Translations under genes and position numbers: made by a program | In this document: piece by piece, positions 3,799-24,170 of the stretch | How the letters are laid out: each line of letters starts with the position of its first letter | Position numbering within the stretch: the first letter of the stretch is position 1 | DNA from: a virus | Length of the DNA stretch: 35,018 nucleotides | Virus record (IMG/VR): IMGVR_UViG_3300022686_000079 | Span: 1-35,018 of that record | Reading direction: 5' to 3' (one strand) | Notes under the pieces: model-generated | What the model was told of the DNA's origin: nothing | The model's database searches: none | What the model saw: only the letters and a program-made list of their open reading frames with translations

Positions 3799-4677
3799 TT
3801 AACATTTAACAACAGAAGTAAGCCATTTTACTATAGGCTCTTTTCTGTATGGTTCCAAATCCATTACCTTTAGTTCGGGAATAGATTTATAATCAATCGT
3901 GCCTTTACATACGCTCTTCAGAAGCTTAACGCCTCCCCCGATGGCGCTAACTCCTCCTGAGCATTCAATAAGAGCTTCTTTTACTTTACTTTCTTCCTCT
4001 TGTAAAGTTTTCAGCTCTTGTTTCTTCTCTTTAACGCGCTCGTTAACGGAAATAAACTGCTTAGCTAGTTCGTTCCACTCCGCTCCCTCTTGAGTGGTAA
4101 CGTCTTTGCTTCCGAGCGGTGGTGCAGTAAAGTTTCGAACGTAATTAATGAAGTTCCCCTCTTCCTCAATAATCCGTTCGATCATTTCCTTATCGGGAGA
4201 AACTTCAACTAACTTGAAGTCACCATTTCGATAAGAAAAGTAGTGTAGCATTTCGATATTATATAATGCAAGCCCTACTGCGAGCTGGTGCTGCAGCTGC
4301 GGAATATATTTTTCTGGAACTAAGCCTTTATGGGCGAGCTCGTGATCCGCAGGATTAGCCGTTTTGATCTCAACAATCACGCTCTGCATCGGATCTATTC
4401 CGTCCAGGCTAGCCATCATGTAGTCTATTTCGGGATGAAACACGACTTGCGGTGAAATTGGTGTACCCGTATGCTTAGTGTAAGCATCGCGTGCCACGGG
4501 CTCAAGATCGTGACCACGTTGCATGTGCGGAAGTGTGGGGCTCTCACGAATCCCCAACTTTTCTTCCCATAGCTGGTAAGGTGTCTTATACGGGCTAACC
4601 CCTAGGATGATAGGCGCATCACTCGCACCTATCATCTTTTTTCTTAATTCCTTCCATTCTTCTGTATTTTGCTTCAT
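3799..4677 (-). CDS. YqaJ-type phage recombination exonuclease
   Basis: 292 residues. N-terminal MKQNTEEWKELRKKMIGASD is the standard YqaJ opening (W8, R12, GAS at 17-19). Then RGHDLEP (54-60) and the PD-(D/E)xK site: D92 in ASLDG, E103 and K105 in VEIKTA, and the QLQHQ helix at 127-131. A coiled-coil C-terminal half follows (about 195-240). The family digests double-stranded ends 5' to 3' to give the 3' single strand used in annealing. Its start shares one base with the ERF gene stop, matching the usual exonuclease/annealing-protein pair. Confidence 0.92.
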   Translation of the reverse strand: MKQNTEEWKELRKKMIGASDAPIILGVSPYKTPYQLWEEKLGIRESPTLPHMQRGHDLEPVARDAYTKHTGTPISPQVVFHPEIDYMMASLDGIDPMQSVIVEIKTANPADHELAHKGLVPEKYIPQLQHQLAVGLALYNIEMLHYFSYRNGDFKLVEVSPDKEMIERIIEEEGNFINYVRNFTAPPLGSKDVTTQEGAEWNELAKQFISVNERVKEKKQELKTLQEEESKVKEALIECSGGVSAIGGGVKLLKSVCKGTIDYKSIPELKVMDLEPYRKEPIVKWLTSVVKC

Positions 4678-5318
4678 TATGCTACCTCTACTTTTGTTGT
4701 TGATTTTTGAAGTTGTGCAATTACATATTTAAAAACATCCTCAGACATATGCGATAGCTTATCAACGCCATGGTGCGCTTCAAGCCAAACTAGCAGAGCT
4801 TGACGCCGTTCGACGTTGTCACCGAGCCAATACTCCAGTTCTGCGTATTGATCGTCTGAGATCCTCTTAGTTTCCTCTGCAGACACATCATGGGCCAACG
4901 TATCGTGAGCTTCCACGTCGTCTTCATCGCCAGTCTCTAAACAAAAAGTTTTAAGTAAAGCGTACTTGATAGCGTATGTGTACGCCTTGCCAATGCCCTT
5001 ATCTTGATTGTCGACGCCCTGCCCCACAGAACAAGTGACGATTTTATCAGAAGGGTCATCGATGTTGATAAAAGCAATCTCTACCTTAAGAGTAGTCAGA
5101 TTGCCCGACTTCTCATGTTCGATGATGTTTGGTACCATCATAATTCGATGTTTAGTAAATGCAGTATGAAACTTCTTCATAACTGCATCTGCTTGAACAA
5201 ACGAGTATAGTCCGTTTACTTTTTTATCACACTTTTGGATATAGGCAATATCACCCATCACCGCATTTAACTTTTGATAAATGTTCTTTTTTTTCTCGTT
5301 AATTTTTTCTTTACCCAT
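4677..5318 (-). CDS. erf: ERF-family single-strand annealing protein
   Basis: 213 residues. The ERF core is at about 12-137, with the diagnostic block DKGIGKAYTYAIKYALL followed by ETGDEDDVE (106-136). P22 Erf and relatives anneal complementary single strands during circularisation and recombination of phage DNA. It is encoded directly upstream of the YqaJ exonuclease. The C-terminal 70 residues are more variable, as in the family, and probably mediate protein contacts. Confidence 0.93.
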   Translation of the reverse strand: MGKEKINEKKKNIYQKLNAVMGDIAYIQKCDKKVNGLYSFVQADAVMKKFHTAFTKHRIMMVPNIIEHEKSGNLTTLKVEIAFINIDDPSDKIVTCSVGQGVDNQDKGIGKAYTYAIKYALLKTFCLETGDEDDVEAHDTLAHDVSAEETKRISDDQYAELEYWLGDNVERRQALLVWLEAHHGVDKLSHMSEDVFKYVIAQLQKSTTKVEVA

Positions 5319-5320
5319 AA

Positions 5321-5539
5321 CTACTCCATGGTTTTGTATAGCGGTTCAAACGCTCTTGTTACGTCGTCATCGTCGCCAGTTTCACTTATAAAAAAGATTA
5401 GATCATGAATCCAATCAGCAATCTCTTGCTCGGTTCGACTTCTTATGAAAAGTCGTATCATATCTTTTTGTTTGTGTGTGTTTTTCATTGTATAGTCTGC
5501 AAAAAAATTCATTAAGTTATCTTTATTCATGGTCTTCAC
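5321..5539 (-). CDS. Small early protein, unknown (related to 5523-5822)
   Basis: 72 residues, helical. The segment KQKDMIRLFIRSRTEQEIADW...FEPLYK resembles KDKVRIIESL...FAIWVD...FFPLFN in the upstream neighbour, suggesting an old duplication. It ends 2 nt before ERF and overlaps the upstream gene by 17 nt, so translation is probably coupled. Confidence 0.6.
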   Translation of the reverse strand: MKTMNKDNLMNFFADYTMKNTHKQKDMIRLFIRSRTEQEIADWIHDLIFFISETGDDDDVTRAFEPLYKTME

Positions 5540-5822
5540 CTTCCAAAATTATTTCCTTCCAATTGTTCACCGTTGCTTCCAATAACTTATCATTGAAAAG
5601 TGGGAAAAAAGTTAACATCATAGCTTGAGGAGAAAAGTTCAAAAGGTGAATACGTACAATATCTACCCAGATAGCAAAGTCCTTTGCACTGATTTTATCA
5701 AGCATTAAGCTTTCAATAATACGGACTTTATCCTTAGGTGTAGCACTCACGTACAAGTCTAATAGTTCAGTAGCGGATGTAACCTCTTCATCACTAAGAA
5801 TGTTTTCTATGTTGTTTTCCAT
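5523..5822 (-). CDS. Small early protein, unknown
   Basis: 99 residues, acidic and helical, no motif recognised. Overlaps both neighbours (17 nt downstream, 29 nt upstream), typical of a tightly packed early operon. Shares the KDKVR..W..FFPLF pattern with the next gene. Confidence 0.6.
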   Translation of the reverse strand: MENNIENILSDEEVTSATELLDLYVSATPKDKVRIIESLMLDKISAKDFAIWVDIVRIHLLNFSPQAMMLTFFPLFNDKLLEATVNNWKEIILEGEDHE

Positions 5823-6024
5823 CTACAACCTCCTTGACAACGGTTTTGATTAATTTGTTTGCAAATTCAGCAAGTGTATGAGCTTTAGCAAGCTCATAAT
5901 ATGCAGAGTCTACCAGATCTAATTCAAATAAAGCTTGTGCTTGTTCATAATACTCATCACTTTTTTTCTGAGTGTCTAAAACAAATATTTCTATATCTTT
6001 TAGTAAATTCTGTTTGTCTATCAT
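5794..6024 (-). CDS. Small helical early protein, unknown
   Basis: 76 residues, almost wholly predicted helix (EYYEQAQALFELDLVDSAYY, AHTLAEFANKLIKTVVKEV). Preceded by GAGGT as SD. In the 42 nt before it, a hairpin TGCATG/CATGCA (about 6043-6060) stands in the place where other genes of this operon have the GGGGC hairpin. Function unknown. Confidence 0.55.
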   Translation of the reverse strand: MIDKQNLLKDIEIFVLDTQKKSDEYYEQAQALFELDLVDSAYYELAKAHTLAEFANKLIKTVVKEVVDGKQHRKHS

Positions 6025-6066: not shown

Positions 6067-6357
6067 TTATTTATCTACTTTTGTTATAGTCATCAATTTT
6101 TTGTACTCACCGCAAAAGTCACCCCAGATTGTAATTGAGTTGGCTTCAACGTCTGCGTCACCCTTGGTGGGAAAACGCAGGAATGATTCGTACGATTGAT
6201 CTCCATCAATGTTTTTAAAAGAAACTAAAAAACGTTGCTTCTTTATCACTTCACGTATACCTCTATCTTCTTCAAAAAGGTGGTTGTACGTGTGGAAGCG
6301 TGCGCCTGGTATAAGCGCACGTTTAAAATCTTCAATTGTTTTCCATGGTTTAGTCAT
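6067..6357 (-). CDS. Small early protein, unknown (paralogue of 7002-7292)
   Basis: 96 residues. WKTIEDFKRALIPGARFHT, then GIREVIKKQRFLVSF and FLRFPTKG line up with LADLKRAMKLGSRWKTT, KIREIVEVKTSKVGFF and WFEFPKST in the 7002-7292 product. The two are probably diverged copies of one family, with a compact beta-rich fold. The ATG overlaps the stop of the upstream gene. Function unknown; such small early proteins often act on host or defence factors, but nothing here shows that. Confidence 0.6.
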   Translation of the reverse strand: MTKPWKTIEDFKRALIPGARFHTYNHLFEEDRGIREVIKKQRFLVSFKNIDGDQSYESFLRFPTKGDADVEANSITIWGDFCGEYKKLMTITKVDK

Positions 6358-6548
6358 GGTTTTTCCGTATCAATTTTTAATTTTTGTATTTCGATTAACT
6401 TATTATGAAAATCTTTTACTTCATTATGAATTGCTTTTATGTCAGCTCTGCTAGCGAGATAAAGCGATACCCATATTCCCATAAAAGTTAAAAAAATTGT
6501 TAGGTTAGCACCTATGATTAAAATAATTTGTAAAGTCTCATCATTCAT
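6354..6548 (-). CDS. Small membrane protein with coiled-coil tail
   Basis: 64 residues. A single transmembrane segment at about 8-31 (IILIIGANLTIFLTFMGIWVSLYL) is followed by a polar helix (IKAIHNEVKDFHNKLIEI) with heptad spacing. It would be anchored in the inner membrane with the helix free. The position in the early operon argues against a lysis role. Function unknown. Confidence 0.6.
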   Translation of the reverse strand: MNDETLQIILIIGANLTIFLTFMGIWVSLYLASRADIKAIHNEVKDFHNKLIEIQKLKIDTEKP

Positions 6549-6567: not shown

Positions 6568-6582
6568 GGGGCTTTACGCCCC
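6568..6582. repeat. Intergenic hairpin copy 1 (GGGGC-TTTAC-GCCCC)
   Basis: A 5-bp stem with 5-nt loop, 8 nt after the stop of the 6591-6893 gene; in the leftward transcript it is followed by TTTT and then the SD leader of the next gene. Confidence 0.85.
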
Positions 6583-6590
6583 GCTATTTA

Positions 6591-6893
6591 CTACTCATCT
6601 AATTCTTTTTCGGTAAGATCTAAATTCCATGAATAATCTTCAAAAACATCGTTCGGATCGAGCGAAAAAAAAATGTTTAAGGCTTCTTCACCGCTCATCC
6701 AAGTAGTACAATCATACCAGCAGCTTTCATCCTTATGAAACTCACATCTCCACCCTTTTTGTTCATGATATTGTATGTTAAATTGCTGAGGAGCAGTAAA
6801 ATTGTACTTTAAATACTCGTCTCGAGCTTTTCTTATATGATCACTGCTTAGTAAACTTTCTATAGTTTTTAAATCTTTTTCTTTAGCTTTCAT
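6591..6893 (-). CDS. Small early protein, unknown
   Basis: 100 residues, rich in Trp, Asp and Glu (KGWRCEFHKDESCWYDCTTW), with three cysteines close together. No family recognised. Preceded by an SD (AAGGAAGG) within a leader that shares GAAAACAACAAAAC with other genes of this operon, and followed by the repeated hairpin. Confidence 0.6.
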   Translation of the reverse strand: MKAKEKDLKTIESLLSSDHIRKARDEYLKYNFTAPQQFNIQYHEQKGWRCEFHKDESCWYDCTTWMSGEEALNIFFSLDPNDVFEDYSWNLDLTEKELDE

Positions 6894-6936
6894 GTTTTCC
6901 TTCCTTATGTTTTGTTGTTTTCTTTCTATCTTCCGA

Positions 6937-6971
6937 AATCTCTACCAATTTATTGAAAGTTGGTAGAAATT
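6937..6971. repeat. Inverted repeat before the 6591-6893 gene
   Basis: Arms AATCTCTACCAA and TTGGTAGAAATT match at 11 of 12 positions around an 11-nt loop. It stands between hairpin copy 2 and the gene leader and may form an extra stem in the leftward transcript. Confidence 0.55.
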
Positions 6972-6980
6972 AAAAAATAA

Positions 6981-6995
6981 GGGGCTTTACGCCCC
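6981..6995. repeat. Intergenic hairpin copy 2
   Basis: Same 15 nt as copy 1, 6 nt after the stop of 7002-7292; followed in the leftward transcript by TTATTTTTT, which makes it resemble an intrinsic terminator. Confidence 0.85.
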
Positions 6996-7001
6996 CTTTT
7001 G

Positions 7002-7292
7002 TTAGTTTACAAGTTCATAAGTCATAAAAGGATCTCTGTGACCCTTTTCCTTCCACCACACAGGCCGAATTTCAACGATGTTTTCATTAAAAGTTAGTTC
7101 TGTTGATTTTGGAAACTCGAACCAACTCACAACTGTTTTTCCATCATCCCGTTCAGTAAAAAAACCAACTTTTGATGTTTTAACTTCCACAATTTCACGA
7201 ATTTTATTCTTACTGAAGAAACCGTATGCATGTGTAGTTTTCCATCTTGAACCTAATTTCATAGCCCTTTTTAAGTCTGCTAAAGTTTTCAT
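7002..7292 (-). CDS. Small early protein, unknown (MKTLADL type)
   Basis: 96 residues, mixed alpha/beta. Starts MKTLADLKRAMKLGSRW; the first seven residues, and nearly the same bases, also start the upstream gene (7346-7651) although the remainder differs. Resembles the 6067-6357 product over its length. Leader contains the shared GAAAACAACAAAACAGAGGT ending in the SD. Function unknown. Confidence 0.6.
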   Translation of the reverse strand: MKTLADLKRAMKLGSRWKTTHAYGFFSKNKIREIVEVKTSKVGFFTERDDGKTVVSWFEFPKSTELTFNENIVEIRPVWWKEKGHRDPFMTYELVN

Positions 7293-7327
7293 ATATACCT
7301 CTGTTTTGTTGTTTTCTTTAAAAGTAG

Positions 7328-7342
7328 GGGCTTTACGCCCCT
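7328..7342. repeat. Intergenic hairpin copy 3
   Basis: Identical 15-nt hairpin, 3 nt after the stop of 7346-7651; then TACTTTTAAAG and the shared A-rich SD leader in the leftward direction. Confidence 0.85.
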
Positions 7343-7345
7343 TGT

Positions 7346-7651
7346 TTAATAAAAGTTAAAAATATAAAAACAGTTTTCTACTTCCACAACAAGCATATCG
7401 TCATCGTCGTAAAGTTCTTTTTTCCATTCTTCAAAAGATTTATCACTTTCACTAGCTAAAATATCTTTATAAAGATCCTCTAAATTTGAATATTTTCCTT
7501 GAAAGCAATCTAAAAGTGTTACTAAGTTGAGATCCATCAAAAGAAAATTTTCTAGAATTGTAAGTATATGATGAAGATCAGTAGTTATATCATCAAAATA
7601 AAGATTAAGTAATGCATAATCTTTTTTATTTAAATCTGCTAATGTTTTCAT
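7346..7651 (-). CDS. Small acidic early protein, unknown
   Basis: 101 residues, strongly acidic and helical. MKTLADL at the N-terminus is shared with the next gene, while the remainder is unrelated, as if a recombination junction fell just inside the coding start. SD GAGGT. No family recognised. Confidence 0.6.
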   Translation of the reverse strand: MKTLADLNKKDYALLNLYFDDITTDLHHILTILENFLLMDLNLVTLLDCFQGKYSNLEDLYKDILASESDKSFEEWKKELYDDDDMLVVEVENCFYIFNFY

Positions 7652-7683
7652 AATTTACCTCTGTGTTGTTTTCTTTAAAAGTA

Positions 7684-7698
7684 GGGGCTTTACGCCCC
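7684..7698. repeat. Intergenic hairpin copy 4
   Basis: Identical 15-nt hairpin, 4 nt after the stop of 7703-7936; flanks on both sides match those of copy 3. Confidence 0.85.
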
Positions 7699-7702
7699 TT
7701 GT

Positions 7703-7936
7703 TTAATCTTCAATTTCGATATATCCAACAGACTCATTACCGAAAAATAAATCTATGATTGTAGGGGTTGCCCAATCTAAAGCAAGTTGCCCGTCCAGAC
7801 GAAATTTTTTACTTAATGCAAGAAAATTATCTGAGTAGTCAAAAAAATTTTTATCAACTTTAATTTTTTCTCTAAAAATATATTTATTTTTATAAGAAAA
7901 TTCATTGTCATCTAAAAAATATAACCTTAAATTCAT
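7703..7936 (-). CDS. Small early protein, unknown (paralogue of 7992-8240)
   Basis: 77 residues. MNLRLYFLD, KVDKNFFD and IDLFFGNESVGYIEIED match MKLTLYKFD, TVSDDFFD and IDLYDGKDGKPLGNIELIN of the upstream neighbour in the same order, so these are tandem paralogues. Probably a small beta-rich protein. SD GAGGT in the shared leader. Confidence 0.6.
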   Translation of the reverse strand: MNLRLYFLDDNEFSYKNKYIFREKIKVDKNFFDYSDNFLALSKKFRLDGQLALDWATPTIIDLFFGNESVGYIEIED

Positions 7937-7971
7937 AATTTACCTCGGTTTTGTTGTTTTCTTTAAAAAAA

Positions 7972-7986
7972 GGGGCGTAAAGCCCC
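7972..7986. repeat. Intergenic hairpin copy 5, inverted
   Basis: Reads GGGGC-GTAAA-GCCCC on the + strand, the exact reverse complement of the other five. In the leftward transcript seven T follow, giving the best intrinsic terminator of the set. It lies 5 nt after the stop of 7992-8240. Confidence 0.85.
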
Positions 7987-7991
7987 TTTTG

Positions 7992-8240
7992 TTAGTTGAT
8001 CAACTCGATGTTGCCGAGAGGCTTTCCATCCTTCCCGTCATACAAATCTATATAAGTACCGCCATCAAATTCTATACAGACATCATCAGATATGTCAAAA
8101 ATATCCCTTAACTTTTTATAGTCAATACCATCAAAAAAGTCATCTGAGACAGTTACAGTATCGACAATAAACCATTGATTCACGTCATATCCATCATCTG
8201 CGTTGCCCCAAGTATCGAATTTATATAATGTTAATTTCAT
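7992..8240 (-). CDS. Small acidic early protein, unknown
   Basis: 82 residues, very rich in Asp (DDGYDVNQWFIVDTVTVSDDF). Paralogue of the downstream gene 7703-7936. Acidity of this degree is seen in some DNA-mimic inhibitors, but that is only a possibility. SD GAGGT with the shared leader; hairpin copy 5 follows the stop. Confidence 0.6.
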   Translation of the reverse strand: MKLTLYKFDTWGNADDGYDVNQWFIVDTVTVSDDFFDGIDYKKLRDIFDISDDVCIEFDGGTYIDLYDGKDGKPLGNIELIN

Positions 8241-8271
8241 ACTAACCTCTGTTGTTGTTTTCTAAATTAAA

Positions 8272-8286
8272 GGGGCTTTACGCCCC
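8272..8286. repeat. Intergenic hairpin copy 6
   Basis: Identical 15-nt hairpin in the standard orientation, 11 nt after the stop of 8298-8564; TTTAATTTAG and the shared leader follow in the leftward direction. Confidence 0.85.
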
Positions 8287-8297
8287 TTAAATGCGAT

Positions 8298-8564
8298 TTA
8301 TATTTTAGGACGGCAACCAACATATGAAAAAATAGGTAGTGAATTTTCTATGCCAATAACTGATGTAGTCAGACGAGCAATGCCCACAAAAAAATAATCG
8401 TCAATTTTATCTTCATAGTGAGACAAGATGTCGAAAGCCCGTATTAGCAACTTGCGATATTTTTCTTTATTACCTTCATAAAATTCTAAGGAATGAAGAT
8501 CAATACCCAGTTCAATTCCCTTATGAAAAAAAGTTTCTATACTATCACTTTCTAAACTAGTCAT
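8298..8564 (-). CDS. First gene of the leftward early operon, unknown
   Basis: 88 residues, acidic N-terminal half, helical. The leader (8565-8590) carries GAAAACAACAAAACCGAGGT, the same as the internal genes, so this leader does not depend on an upstream hairpin. It lies directly downstream of a good leftward promoter and an operator-like sequence. No family recognised. Confidence 0.6.
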   Translation of the reverse strand: MTSLESDSIETFFHKGIELGIDLHSLEFYEGNKEKYRKLLIRAFDILSHYEDKIDDYFFVGIARLTTSVIGIENSLPIFSYVGCRPKI

Positions 8565-8630
8565 ATATACCTCGGTTTTGTTGTTTTCTAAATTTTCAAA
8601 ATATCATGCTTACTTTAAGCAAGCTTTATC

Positions 8631-8671
8631 AGTGAAACTATATCTCACTTTTACCGTATGCCTAAAGTATA
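8631..8671. promoter_or_regulatory. Operator-like region at the leftward early promoter
   Basis: Contains AGTGA/TCACT as an inverted repeat (8633-8651) followed by TTTACCGTATGC (8650-8661). The latter 12-mer recurs exactly at 9388-9399 in the second of two operator repeats. It lies just downstream of, and abuts, the -10 of the leftward promoter, so a bound protein would block the early operon. Confidence 0.5.
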
Positions 8672-8694
8672 ACAGACGCTGAAAATTTATGCAA
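8666..8694 (-). promoter_or_regulatory. Leftward early promoter
   Basis: -35 TTGCAT (8689-8694), 17-bp spacer, -10 TATACT (8666-8671) on the minus strand, heading the 8564-3553 operon. Confidence 0.7.
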
Positions 8695-8720
8695 CCCAAA
8701 ATATTGTGTTTTTTTGCGCG

Positions 8721-9336: not shown

Positions 9337-9366
9337 GTGACATTTACCGCAAGCAGGAATAGTCAC
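9337..9366. promoter_or_regulatory. Operator repeat 1
   Basis: A 30-bp element beginning GTGACATTTACCG and ending ATAGTCAC; GTGAC/GTCAC form an inverted repeat. It is repeated 44 bp further on. Confidence 0.6.
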
Positions 9367-9380
9367 TTATCTCAACTTCA

Positions 9381-9410
9381 GTGACATTTACCGTATGCGG
9401 ATATAGTCAC
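9381..9410. promoter_or_regulatory. Operator repeat 2
   Basis: Same 30-bp layout as repeat 1: GTGACATTTACCG, then TATGCGG, then ATATAGTCAC, with inner near-palindrome CCGTATGCGG. A perfect -10 (TATAAT) for leftward transcription lies at 9413-9418, next to its edge. Confidence 0.6.
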
Positions 9411-10522: not shown

Positions 10523-10546
10523 AATCAGTCCTTTTTGAATTCATTC

Positions 10547-10825
10547 TTATCCATTCCTCTCCTGTCCGCTCCTCTCCTGCCCATTCCAGTGCATAGGATC
10601 TTCATTATCATTTTTTTCTTTCTTTGATTTGCAATCAAGCCAATATCTTAAACAACTTAACCCACAAAAGTGATGCTTTCTTTCCAACATAGGCTTCATT
10701 AAAATATCAACTGTCAATTGTTCTATGTTTGGTATTTTCTCACAATCAAGGACAACCCTCCAAGAATCACAACAGTATGTATCAGCTAAGTCTTTTTTAC
10801 ATGAGTCGCAGAAAATTTTTTTTAT
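10547..10825 (-). CDS. Cysteine-rich protein with ATA in the start position
   Basis: 92 residues. Cysteine groups CDSC (6-9), CC (18-19) and CGLSC (54-58) suggest a zinc-binding protein; no named family recognised. No ATG/GTG/TTG is available at the N-terminus. ATA at 10825 has AAGG 7 nt upstream and overlaps the stop of the preceding gene as ATAA, the way ATGA overlaps work. The last 15 residues (HWNGQERSGQERNG) are encoded by a pentamer array. ATA initiation is inferred. Confidence 0.5.
   Translation of the reverse strand: MKKIFCDSCKKDLADTYCCDSWRVVLDCEKIPNIEQLTVDILMKPMLERKHHFCGLSCLRYWLDCKSKKEKNDNEDPMHWNGQERSGQERNG
10551..10590. repeat. CCNNT pentamer array D (8 units)
   Basis: Eight in-register pentamers such as CCATT, CCTCT, CCTGT, CCGCT; one ends in C. 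In the leftward mRNA they read ANNGG. This array encodes the C-terminus of the upstream gene and lies before the YgiT-like gene. Confidence 0.85.
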
Positions 10826-10917
10826 TGTGATGCCTTTTTTTTAATTAATTCATCAATTCTTATCCAATATTTTCCTTTTTTCGGAAGTCTATCGTAAACG
10901 CTAATCCAATTAGCCAT
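10822..10917 (-). CDS. Truncated DUF551-type protein
   Basis: 31 residues. MANWISVYDRLPKKGKYW carries the N-terminal signature of DUF551 (WISV.DRLP), but the protein stops where the family normally continues for some 40 more residues to a HWMP-type end. The ATG lies inside an AATGG pentamer of array C. The downstream gene overlaps its stop. It may be a remnant or a functional small form. Confidence 0.55.
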   Translation of the reverse strand: MANWISVYDRLPKKGKYWIRIDELIKKKASQ

Positions 10918-10983
10918 TCCATTCCATTCCATGCCTCTCCCATCCCCTCCTGTCCATTCCCCTCCAGTCCTCTCCATTCCACT
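10914..10983. repeat. CCNNT pentamer array C (14 units)
   Basis: Fourteen pentamers in one register; 13 fit CCNNT exactly (CCATT, CCTCT, CCCAT, CCCCT, CCTGT, CCAGT, CCACT) and one ends in G (CCATG). It lies between the membrane-protein gene (stop at 11011) and the DUF551 remnant, whose ATG it supplies. Confidence 0.9.
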
Positions 10984-11010
10984 TAAGTAAAGGTTTCCTT
11001 TTGTTACATC

Positions 11011-11346
11011 TTACCGTTGTATATGTACGGGATATGATATAGGGTGTATCTTGTTCTCTGATTTGTATAGTTTTTTGATCAAGAATAATTCTCGGTAGTG
11101 CTTGGCTTGATACGCATTTGACGCACAGTCAAGTCCCACTAGTAGAAAAACAGTTCCGAGTAGCCATCCTAAAAGTGTCCTGCCAAGATATGTTTTGTAC
11201 CCAATACTATTATTTTCTAAGTGAAACATAAAGCAACCAAATGCAATAAGTGCTAATCCTATTCCTATGCAGTAAGGTGCCATCTCCCCAGATATCTGAG
11301 CGTTTTGCAATGCCTGCTCTGCTGCCTTCTCGTATAAATCGCTCAC
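11011..11346 (-). CDS. Small membrane protein, two transmembrane segments
   Basis: 111 residues from GTG 11346. Transmembrane segments at about 23-41 (MAPYCIGIGLALIAFGCFMF) and 55-73 (LGRTLLGWLLGTVFLLVGL), then a basic C-terminal tail. The GTG overlaps the stop of a 13-codon frame (11387-11346, MTKDKRNTRRSAK), suggesting translational coupling since the GTG itself has little SD. Two segments and small size would fit a holin, but the operon position among non-lytic genes does not support that. Function unknown. Confidence 0.55.
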   Translation of the reverse strand: MSDLYEKAAEQALQNAQISGEMAPYCIGIGLALIAFGCFMFHLENNSIGYKTYLGRTLLGWLLGTVFLLVGLDCASNAYQAKHYRELFLIKKLYKSENKIHPISYPVHIQR

Positions 11347-11387
11347 TACTTTGCCGATCGTCTAGTATTACGTTTATCCTTAGTCAT
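11346..11387 (-). CDS. 13-codon reading frame coupled to the membrane protein
   Basis: ATG at 11387, stop TAG sharing a base with the GTG of the next gene. Encodes a very basic peptide. The evidence is only its position; it may be a leader that brings ribosomes to the weak GTG start. Confidence 0.25.
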   Translation of the reverse strand: MTKDKRNTRRSAK

Positions 11388-11417
11388 GTCTGCTCATTAA
11401 TTATTCCTTTAAAAAAA

Positions 11418-11512
11418 CCATTCCATTCCACTCCTTTCCTCTCCGATCCAGTCCCTTCCCTTCCAGTCCCTTCCATTCCCATCCACTCCTATCCTATCCT
11501 ATCCTATCCAGT
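11418..11512. repeat. CCNNT pentamer array B (19 units)
   Basis: Nineteen units in register, including CCGAT, CCAGT, CCCTT and a run of four CCTAT. It fills the gap between the end of the 11524 gene and the membrane-protein gene. Confidence 0.9.
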
Positions 11513-11523
11513 AAAAAAATAAG

Positions 11524-12114
11524 CTACTCAAACTCAATATCAATAACTTCAAAACGTCCATATCCAAGGGTTCGCATTTCTGCTATCCCTTGCAACTTTC
11601 CGCAATCTTCAACGATTTTTTTAATGTGTTGCTTTGAGATCAAAGTATCGTCGACTAGTAATTCAAATTCAGTCTCCCAGCCTGGTGAGCAAGCTACTCT
11701 GTAGCGTACATTACGCCCTTTCGTATTAGGGTTAGCTACCATTCGTACGTCGATGTAAACGGGTAAAGATGAATCGATAGGGACGTCCTGATCTGAAATA
11801 TTTTCCCAGTCGTCAAACATTTTGCGATTAAGGTAAGCTTTCGATGTTAGTACGTTAACTGCCGAAATCCATGTTTTTTGTATCGAACCACGGCCTACTT
11901 TTGTATGCACTGCAGCATTCTTTAAAGCAGCAAAAATGTAATTGTCGGGTATGTATAATTTTCCGTTGTCGTGAAAATACGAGTTTCTCCACTCGTCTGG
12001 ATTATTCCCTGAGCTGCCAGATTTTGGTTTCGATAAAGCCGTAAGTGCTTCAATGTTGAATTTATGAAAAACTAGTGGTTTAATACCTTTAATTTTAATT
12101 TTCGCTGTTAACAT
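11524..12114 (-). CDS. Conserved phage protein of the KGR/GRF type, possibly RAMP-like fold
   Basis: 196 residues. The order KIKGIKPLVFHKF (7-19), LYIPDNYIFAALKNAA, RGSIQKTW, NTKGRNVRYR, GKLQGIAEMRTLGYGRFEV (near the end) is that of a conserved protein I associate with many phages and mobile elements, usually annotated as hypothetical. The glycine-rich end and two-fold layout recall RAMP (Cas5/6/7-like) ferredoxin folds; this is an impression, not a match. ATG 12114 has AAAGGAT as SD. Flanked on both sides by pentamer arrays. Confidence 0.6.
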   Translation of the reverse strand: MLTAKIKIKGIKPLVFHKFNIEALTALSKPKSGSSGNNPDEWRNSYFHDNGKLYIPDNYIFAALKNAAVHTKVGRGSIQKTWISAVNVLTSKAYLNRKMFDDWENISDQDVPIDSSLPVYIDVRMVANPNTKGRNVRYRVACSPGWETEFELLVDDTLISKQHIKKIVEDCGKLQGIAEMRTLGYGRFEVIDIEFE

Positions 12115-12140
12115 AAGATATCCTTTTTTTGTTTAAATTT

Positions 12141-12265
12141 CCGTTCCATTCCTCTCCTGTCCAATCCTCTCGGCTCCATACCTCTCCATTCCTGTCCAAT
12201 TCTCTCCATTCCCATCCCCTCCTTTCCTGTCCTTTCCATTCCCCTCCTTTCCTTTTCTATCCATG
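12141..12265. repeat. CCNNT pentamer array A (25 units)
   Basis: Twenty-five pentamers in one register; 21 fit CCNNT exactly and the exceptions (CGGCT, CCATA, TCTCT or TCTAT, CCATG) differ at a single conserved position. It contains the stop codon of the 12532 gene and precedes the 12114 gene. Confidence 0.9.
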
Positions 12266-22592: not shown

Positions 22593-23537
22593 ATGTCAAA
22601 CATTACAACAGTTGCTGTCTTGCCACCAGCGGTAAGGGAATACTACGATCGACTGCTTTTGATGACAGCCTATCCAAGGCTTGTACATACAAAGTTTGCT
22701 CAAAAAAGAGTACTTCCAGAAAAAATGGGAGATACCATTGTTTTCCGCCGCTATGCAAGATTAGCTACAGTACCCATTCCTTTACAGGATGGTATTACTC
22801 CTCCGGGAGCACCATTATCGGTATCCGATATCAAAGCACGCGTTGATTTCTACGGAAATTTCGTAACGATCACGAATCAAGTCGAATTGACTGTTGAAGA
22901 TCGTGTGCTGAACGAAGCTTCCAGACTTCTAGCGCAAAATTTAGCTCAAACTATGGACGAGGTAACACGTGATGTGCTCGCCTCCACCATGAGCGTTCTG
23001 CAGGCCGAAAACGGAGTTAACGGTAATACTCCTACAGAGCTAACAAAGGCAGATATTGATATTGCCGTACAAACATTGCTTGGAAATGATACCGAAATGA
23101 TCTCGGAGGTAATTGAAGGAACACTTAAATTTGGTACCGTACCAGTAAGACCTTCTTTCTTTGCATATATTGATACAGCCCTTCTAGATGATCTAGAAGC
23201 AGTATCTAACTTTGTACATACTGCAAATTACCCTTCACAACAACCTGTATTGGATGCTGAGTGGGGAACAACTGGCAACGTTAGGTGGCTATACACATCC
23301 GTAGGTAGTGTAAGTGCCGCTTCACCTGCTGTTTATAATAACTTTATCATTGGTAAAGAAGCATATGCAGTCGTTCACTTGGGATCAGAAACAGGTGAAT
23401 TCTATGTAGAGCCGCTTGGTTCTGCCGGATCGGCCGATCCTCTACACCAAAGAGGTTCTGTAGGTTGGCAGCATCCATTTGTGTCTAGAATCCTAAACGA
23501 TGCCTTCATGTTAAATCTTGAAGCTACACATTCATAG
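22593..23537 (+). CDS. Major capsid protein, N4-gp56 family
   Basis: 314 residues. PPAVREYYDRLLLMTAYPRLVHTKFAQKR, then GDTIVFRRYARL, PLQDGITPPG, GNFVTITNQVELTVEDRVLNEASRLL, HLGSETGEFYVEPLGS and QRGSVGWQHPFVSRILNDAFML follow the order seen in N4-gp56 family capsid proteins (HK97 fold). SD AGGAG. It forms the icosahedral shell. Confidence 0.92.
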   Translation: MSNITTVAVLPPAVREYYDRLLLMTAYPRLVHTKFAQKRVLPEKMGDTIVFRRYARLATVPIPLQDGITPPGAPLSVSDIKARVDFYGNFVTITNQVELTVEDRVLNEASRLLAQNLAQTMDEVTRDVLASTMSVLQAENGVNGNTPTELTKADIDIAVQTLLGNDTEMISEVIEGTLKFGTVPVRPSFFAYIDTALLDDLEAVSNFVHTANYPSQQPVLDAEWGTTGNVRWLYTSVGSVSAASPAVYNNFIIGKEAYAVVHLGSETGEFYVEPLGSAGSADPLHQRGSVGWQHPFVSRILNDAFMLNLEATHS

Positions 23538-24146: not shown

Positions 24147-24150
24147 AAAA

Positions 24151-24170
24151 AGGGGACTTAATTGTCCCCT
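24151..24170. terminator. Hairpin after the capsid genes
   Basis: Stem AGGGGAC/GTCCCCT with a 6-nt loop, preceded by seven A and not followed by a T-run on the + strand. In the late direction it is more likely an mRNA 3'-end or stability element than a terminator. Confidence 0.5.

Follow-up and report, generated by a model that had tools for sequence, protein, structure and literature searches.

Six small phage genes, each with its own leader and a stop-proximal hairpin, form an apparent cassette array upstream of ERF and YqaJ recombination genes

Six consecutive minus-strand genes in an IMG/VR phage record each end a few nucleotides before an exact copy of the same GC hairpin, and each is preceded by a form of the same A-rich leader. 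The window, that is, the whole stretch of DNA analysed, comprises 35,018 bp with a GC content of 37.8%. On balance, we lean towards reading these genes as an accessory small-gene array of six cassettes, with terminators gated by translation, junctions that offer homology for cassette turnover, and accessory early products. This reading draws on the anatomy of the array, its absence as a block from relatives, the terminator character of its hairpin elsewhere and a recombination-type footprint at the fourth cassette.

The window encodes a P22-type portal (PF16510), a terminase, a major head protein and two HTH regulators. The phage has a temperate look, and the leftward operon that carries the array is repressor-proximal and probably early. 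The array lies between the promoter/operator region and the ERF–YqaJ recombination operon, as follows:

8637–8695, minus strand: candidate promoter and operator-like repeats upstream of the array, as read from the letters
6067–6548, minus strand: two overlapping genes 3′ of the array, without hairpins (64 aa; 96 aa, g6067)
5321–6024, minus strand: three more overlapping small genes, without hairpins
4677–5318, minus strand: ERF single-strand annealing protein (PF04404, E 2.8e-19)
3799–4677, minus strand: YqaJ-family exonuclease (PF09588, E 2.8e-26)

The candidate promoter reads TTGCAT-17-TATACT, with TGT ahead of the −10 element (extended −10). Direct copies of an operator-like repeat, GTGACATTTACCGYAWGC, of the form GTGACATTTACCG(C/T)A(A/T)GC, were recognized by eye at 9337 and 9381 (9337–9410), and a third, related copy at about 8640, beside the leftward promoter. 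The operon ends with the ERF and YqaJ genes, downstream of the array on the same strand, as a preliminary description of this DNA had stated. Past the sixth hairpin it is compact, with overlapping or nearly abutting genes and no hairpins. The YqaJ exonuclease is conserved in the phage family, at about 50% identity in relatives.

The hairpin, GGGGC-(TTTAC/GTAAA)-GCCCC, occurs in six exact copies at 6568, 6981, 7327, 7684, 7972 and 8272, with stems of 5–8 bp; shuffled sequences gave an expectation of 0.26 matches to the 15-nt element with up to 3 mismatches allowed. An A-rich leader with a Shine–Dalgarno (SD) sequence, GAAAACAACA(AAA)C(A/C)GAGGT, precedes five genes (8298, 7992, 7703, 7346 and 7002), and the sixth (6591) is preceded by a diverged form. 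Past the last hairpin there is no more than a partial AACAAAAGAGGT. The first gene, next to the promoter, has no GC hairpin before it; because it also carries the leader, the array consists of six complete leader–ORF–hairpin units:

8298–8588, minus strand: cassette 1, leader (8569–8588) and ORF of 88 aa, pI 5.2
8272–8286, minus strand: hairpin 1, 11 nt after the stop codon, tail TTTAATTT
7992–8262, minus strand: cassette 2, leader and ORF of 82 aa, pI 4.1, paralogue of cassette 3
7972–7986, minus strand: hairpin 2, loop inverted (UUUAC), 5 nt after the stop codon, U7 tail
7703–7961, minus strand: cassette 3, leader and ORF of 77 aa, pI 4.7
7684–7698, minus strand: hairpin 3, 4 nt after the stop codon, weak tail TACTTTT, in the upstream copy of the cassette 4 direct repeat
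7346–7675, minus strand: cassette 4 (g7346), leader and ORF of 101 aa, pI 4.1
7327–7341, minus strand: hairpin 4, 4 nt after the stop codon, tail TACTTTT, in the downstream copy of the cassette 4 direct repeat
7002–7316, minus strand: cassette 5, leader and ORF of 96 aa, pI 9.6, MKTLADxKR family
6981–6995, minus strand: hairpin 5, 6 nt after the stop codon, tail TTATTTTTT (good terminator)
6591–6922, minus strand: cassette 6, diverged leader (6903–6922) and ORF of 100 aa, pI 4.7
6568–6582, minus strand: hairpin 6, 8 nt after the stop codon, tail TTTTAAC

This anatomy bears out the preliminary description. All six genes end just before a hairpin, at 4–11 nt past the stop codon rather than the 3–11 nt given there, and one hairpin is indeed inverted, the copy at 7972 having its 5-nt loop reversed between unchanged stems. 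The near-identical leader with the SD is there as well, before five genes, the first of them without a preceding hairpin, and in diverged form before the sixth. GC hairpins occupy all six gaps of the array versus one of the nine other co-directional gaps of the window; across the phage family they occur in 25 of 192 such gaps, against a shuffle expectation of 3.9. The single other GC hairpin of this kind in the window (24147–24161) is in the structural region, two genes from the start of the major head protein, and structural-region gap hairpins are present in several relatives as well. No sigma-70-like promoter was found in the leaders, and promoter-like matches in the region were at the level of shuffles. 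Neither the leader pattern nor the hairpin-plus-leader pattern was found in viral contigs, and an Rfam search returned sub-threshold chance matches only.

A 17-nt form of the hairpin was found in 68 other viral contigs, where it is intergenic in 65 of 68 cases (96%, compared with 19% of random positions), flanked by a T-run in 52 of 68 (76%, compared with 6%) and within 40 nt of a stop codon in 48 of 68 (compared with 9% of random positions). Because of this intergenic, T-run-flanked and stop-proximal placement, the 17-nt hairpin can be regarded as a common intrinsic terminator sequence. The array copies combine a GC stem with a U-tract, as intrinsic terminators do, and the other contigs support their assignment to the terminator type. 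Two of the T-tracts (7972 and 6981) are strong, two (8272 and 6568) intermediate and two (7684 and 7327) weak; hairpin 2 (7972) is the strongest terminator of the six. With four of the six tracts imperfect, some copies may hardly terminate.

The same weak tracts are the starting point for a different account, in which the hairpins mainly protect mRNA 3′ ends or delimit processed monocistronic segments and the leader is a translation enhancer, termination and recombination being unimportant. The two hairpins with poor T-tracts (TACTTTT) nevertheless keep perfect stems, and exonucleases working from the 3′ end would be stopped by a GC hairpin behind each ORF. We regard this account as unlikely, as it leaves the retained T-rich tails and the duplication footprints unexplained, and the hairpin acts elsewhere as a terminator.

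The hairpins could also be recognition elements for a phage protein, either boxB-like RNA or operator/stoperator DNA, with an incidental resemblance to terminators. The core, loop included, is invariant in the six copies, the palindrome is nearly orientation-independent, and five copies, read on the transcribed strand, fold like lambda boxB, into a 5-bp stem capped by a GNRNA pentaloop (GUAAA). The inverted copy, however, has the loop UUUAC; all six copies sit 4–11 nt past stop codons and not near promoters; and elsewhere the hairpin is terminator-like, with T-runs and after stop codons. Neither a boxA near any hairpin nor an arginine-rich N-like protein was found, and we judge the recognition-element account to be very unlikely. 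Antitermination of the lambda nut (boxA–boxB) type was likewise considered and set aside: five of the six loops fit GNRNA, but boxA and an arginine-rich small protein are missing.

If the hairpins are terminators, their position relative to the stop codons becomes important. In E. coli, a translating ribosome almost abolishes termination at a terminator located a few base pairs past a stop codon (PMC4824070). The repression was measured for tR2 in E. coli, which may not represent the host here, and full termination was reached in that system only beyond 27 nt (PMC4824070). The spacing of 4–11 nt in the array is within the ribosome-repressed range, so all six terminators should be strongly translation-gated, and six serial terminators therefore need not silence the recombination genes, even without an antiterminator. 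If each site stopped transcription with a constant efficiency of 0.5, only 1.6% of transcripts would get past all six, which would require that gating, weakness of the terminators or both be at work. The earlier suggestion that an operon of this design needs antitermination is consequently probably wrong, since stop-proximal terminators are largely repressed by ribosomes (PMC4824070); the sequence check for its components (boxA, an N-like protein) is the negative one given above.

Structural relatives of the phage were located through the major head protein (80 loci, 77–90% identity), and 21 long relative records were read whole. The hairpin array is in none of these 21 records, and none of the six array genes is matched in the fetched relatives. 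Among the eight relatives in which both anchors could be mapped, the distance from the Cro-like gene to the start of YqaJ is 1,264–1,703 bp in seven and 3,308 bp in the eighth, compared with 4,086 bp here. In most relatives a single small gene and a different gene, of recombinase size, make up this interval. The 3.3-kb interval (G013, the same record as L118) holds several small genes, the first two of which share the leader CAACACAACAAAT(T)GAGG; ahead of this leader stands a C/G hairpin that differs in sequence from that of the array. Comparison of the array region with the shorter intervals of the relatives marks the promoter-proximal slot of the operon as a place of gene gain.

Two unrelated phages with a cassette 5 homologue, L141 and L138, also have stop–hairpin–leader junctions. 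In L138 (4625–6008), a leader, ACTTAAGGAAAGGACATG, occurs four times before small genes, and two of these are preceded by GC hairpins just past stop codons. A DNA similarity search with the array gave no match in phage records. The search with ERF returned nothing in genomes and one distant locus without an array in viral contigs.

Several head-protein matches touch on the identity of the hosts. The major head protein (22593–23537) is 86% identical to one on L136, a 36,464-bp contig binned in a Chlamydiae metagenome-assembled genome, and weaker matches were seen in 7 more of 232 genomes of the Chlamydiae phylum; these genomes may represent hosts of the phage family or may contain misbinned phage contigs. 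In four loci (L083 5517–6690; G090:C368; G112:C388; G144:C19) the head-protein match is in two pieces with an insert between them, perhaps an intron, an intein or a gene split.

The operon contains footprints of duplication. Cassettes 2 and 3 are distantly paralogous, with a moderate score (Z 5.5) that exceeds every one of 500 shuffles, and cassette 5 and g6067 are paralogues with Z 8.4, matched at 3e-24 and 1e-17, respectively, by a profile built without window sequences. Cassette 4 lies between near-identical direct repeats of ~90 nt, perfect over the first 43 nt, which span the stop codon of the preceding gene, the hairpin and the leader and extend into the first codons. Because the repeats reach into the first codons, cassette 4 starts with MKTLADL, as the cassette 5 family does, and the remainder of its body is unrelated. 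A crossover between the two repeats would delete ~357 bp, corresponding to cassette 4, and leave the start of cassette 5 intact. The flip of the 5-nt loop between unchanged stems in hairpin 2 is a further local rearrangement. These footprints show duplication or recombination at the junctions and are not evidence of exchange between phages; a single local duplication of recent date, rather than an exchange system, could account for the 43-nt perfect repeats.

An extension of that thought is that the whole array arose by recent tandem duplication of one leader–gene–hairpin unit followed by fast divergence of the ORFs, with no exchange and no regulatory role. The two paralogue pairs in the operon and the near-identical units around cassette 4 would fit such a history. 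Most cassette ORFs, though, are dissimilar while the intercistronic units are near-identical, the start of cassette 4 is that of one family although its body is unrelated, and homologues of cassette 5 occur in unrelated phages, all of which make this origin distinctly unlikely.

The idea that genes are swapped in and out between the repeats, put forward in the preliminary description, is borne out in part. It is supported by a gene-gain block absent from eight syntenic relatives, by the two paralogue pairs and by the ~90-nt direct repeat around cassette 4. Gene content changing exactly at hairpins was not seen: the array is absent from the relatives as a whole, and no relative with a subset of the cassettes was found in viral contigs, in one genome per species or in phage and plasmid records.

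Five of the six array proteins are acidic (pI 4.1–5.2). Searches of the array proteins against Pfam and PHROGs gave nothing usable; cassettes 2, 4 and 6 and g6067 have no match in phage records, and the cassette 2/3 family and the body of cassette 4 have no relatives in viral contigs. Cassette 5 belongs to a family also represented in nine further viral contigs and in a single faecal phage record; every member starts with MKTLADxKR or a near form. Its structure model is a confident small SH3-like barrel (pLDDT 91). From the PDB, the fold search with this family yielded only SH3/KOW-like barrels, none of them significant; its single good match was an uncharacterised protein of a Rhodococcus phage. 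The mostly acidic products of 77–101 aa are plausibly accessory early proteins, such as counter-defence or host-takeover factors; their acidity is compatible with an anti-defence role but is no test of it.

Elsewhere, the window appears to encode an RNA-guided VIPR system, a type of system described in a 2026 preprint (PMC13142463):

11524–12114, minus strand: Vipr-like protein of 196 aa (phrog_4652, 6e-15)
10540–12265, minus strand: VIPR-like region, with tracts of 5-nt GGA-NN units at 12252, 11509, 10980 and 10587

Of the 51 units in the window, 47 have A as their third base (GGA-NN), in contrast to the pyrimidine of the GGY-NN units in characterised VIPR types (PMC13142463). A homologous Vipr-like gene (59% identity) flanked by similar tracts is present in the relative phage L098. 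A Paenibacillus cellulosilyticus plasmid record (L220 3001–4026) contains a Vipr-like homologue with 15 GGY-type units and an adjacent HNH-like ORF, and two genomes of the Chlamydiota search group (L223 and L224) have Vipr-like homologues near GG-NNN tracts. Under a 1-nt skip rule, no guide targets were found among the fetched loci. The Vipr identity is based on the association of gene and tracts and not on fold, a poor structure model of the protein (pLDDT 41) having been set aside.

Under the favoured reading of the array, a ribosome finishing the upstream ORF would cover the hairpin and polymerase would pass; were the upstream ORF untranslated, the terminator would fire. The downstream genes, ERF and YqaJ last, would be expressed through a series of translation-dependent gates. 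The near-identical intercistronic units of ~45–90 nt would provide homology for duplication, loss or exchange of cassettes, by the phage's ERF/YqaJ or by host recombination, and a newly arrived cassette would come with the start and stop signals that it needs. The role of ERF/YqaJ in driving the exchange is our inference. A stricter version, in which every cassette has a ribosome-gated terminator, the next cassettes and ERF/YqaJ depend on all prior translation, and each junction is an exchange site of the phage's recombinase, strikes us as doubtful. If the favoured reading is true, it provides a rule for assembling modular small-gene arrays without breaking operon expression, each module coming with a start signal and with a terminator that only translation of the module keeps silent. 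The signature (a stop codon, a hairpin within about 11 nt and a common leader) could then be used to find candidate anti-defence genes in uncultured phages.

Several known systems share parts of this design. Integron gene cassettes also line up as single ORFs with a similar inverted repeat behind each one, and the array resembles them in both respects. It differs in that its hairpin is a perfect 15-nt element without attC-like arms and a leader is within each unit; moreover, no integrase was found among the window ORFs scanned (part of the total), and in the operon no recombinase beyond ERF/YqaJ.

The promoter early stem-loops (PeSLs) of T4-type phages (Arbiol 2010 and Comeau 2014, as cited in PMC4503421 and PMC5931544) are, in the summaries given by the citing papers, likewise repeated units with a stem-loop terminator between small early genes, for which modular shuffling by homologous recombination has been proposed. 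As summarized there, a PeSL contains an early promoter within the unit; in the array a translation leader with an SD makes up the second half of the unit, and no promoter is evident. The phage type also differs from that of the PeSLs in these summaries, and here there is one array of six.

In Cluster O mycobacteriophages, invariant 17-bp palindromes occupy intergenic gaps of a leftward small-gene operon, the orientation of their central bases is not fixed, and a gene is flanked by direct repeats, all of which recall the array; insertions and deletions there were attributed to recombination between palindrome copies (PMC4351075). Those palindromes, however, number 30+ copies genome-wide, many within genes, are of unknown function and are not tied to gene starts (PMC4351075), whereas the array has 6 copies, strictly 4–11 nt past stop codons and with T-tracts. 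In Cluster K, a conserved sequence (SAS) is located at the start of many small non-structural genes, with an inverted repeat (ESAS) just upstream in about half of them, whose sequence is specific to phage subgroups (PMC3203893). ESAS elements, by contrast, are 17-bp imperfect repeats with variable spacers and without terminator features, and the SAS sequence is unrelated (PMC3203893): the 13-bp SAS GGGATAGGAGCCC is not found in the array, whose leader is GAAAACAACA..GAGGT.

Early anti-defence genes of archaeal viruses are also small, unrelated genes behind near-identical upstream sequences, and the common upstream sequence was used to find them (PMC11065993). There the common element is a strong promoter for each gene (PMC11065993), whereas here it is a terminator plus a translation leader within one operon. 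Taken together, the array has the look of an accessory gene set that grows and can be swapped; it resembles the repeat-bounded cassettes of a few other phages and is not wholly new. It differs from them in that its unit joins a translation leader to a stop-proximal terminator and has no evident promoter.
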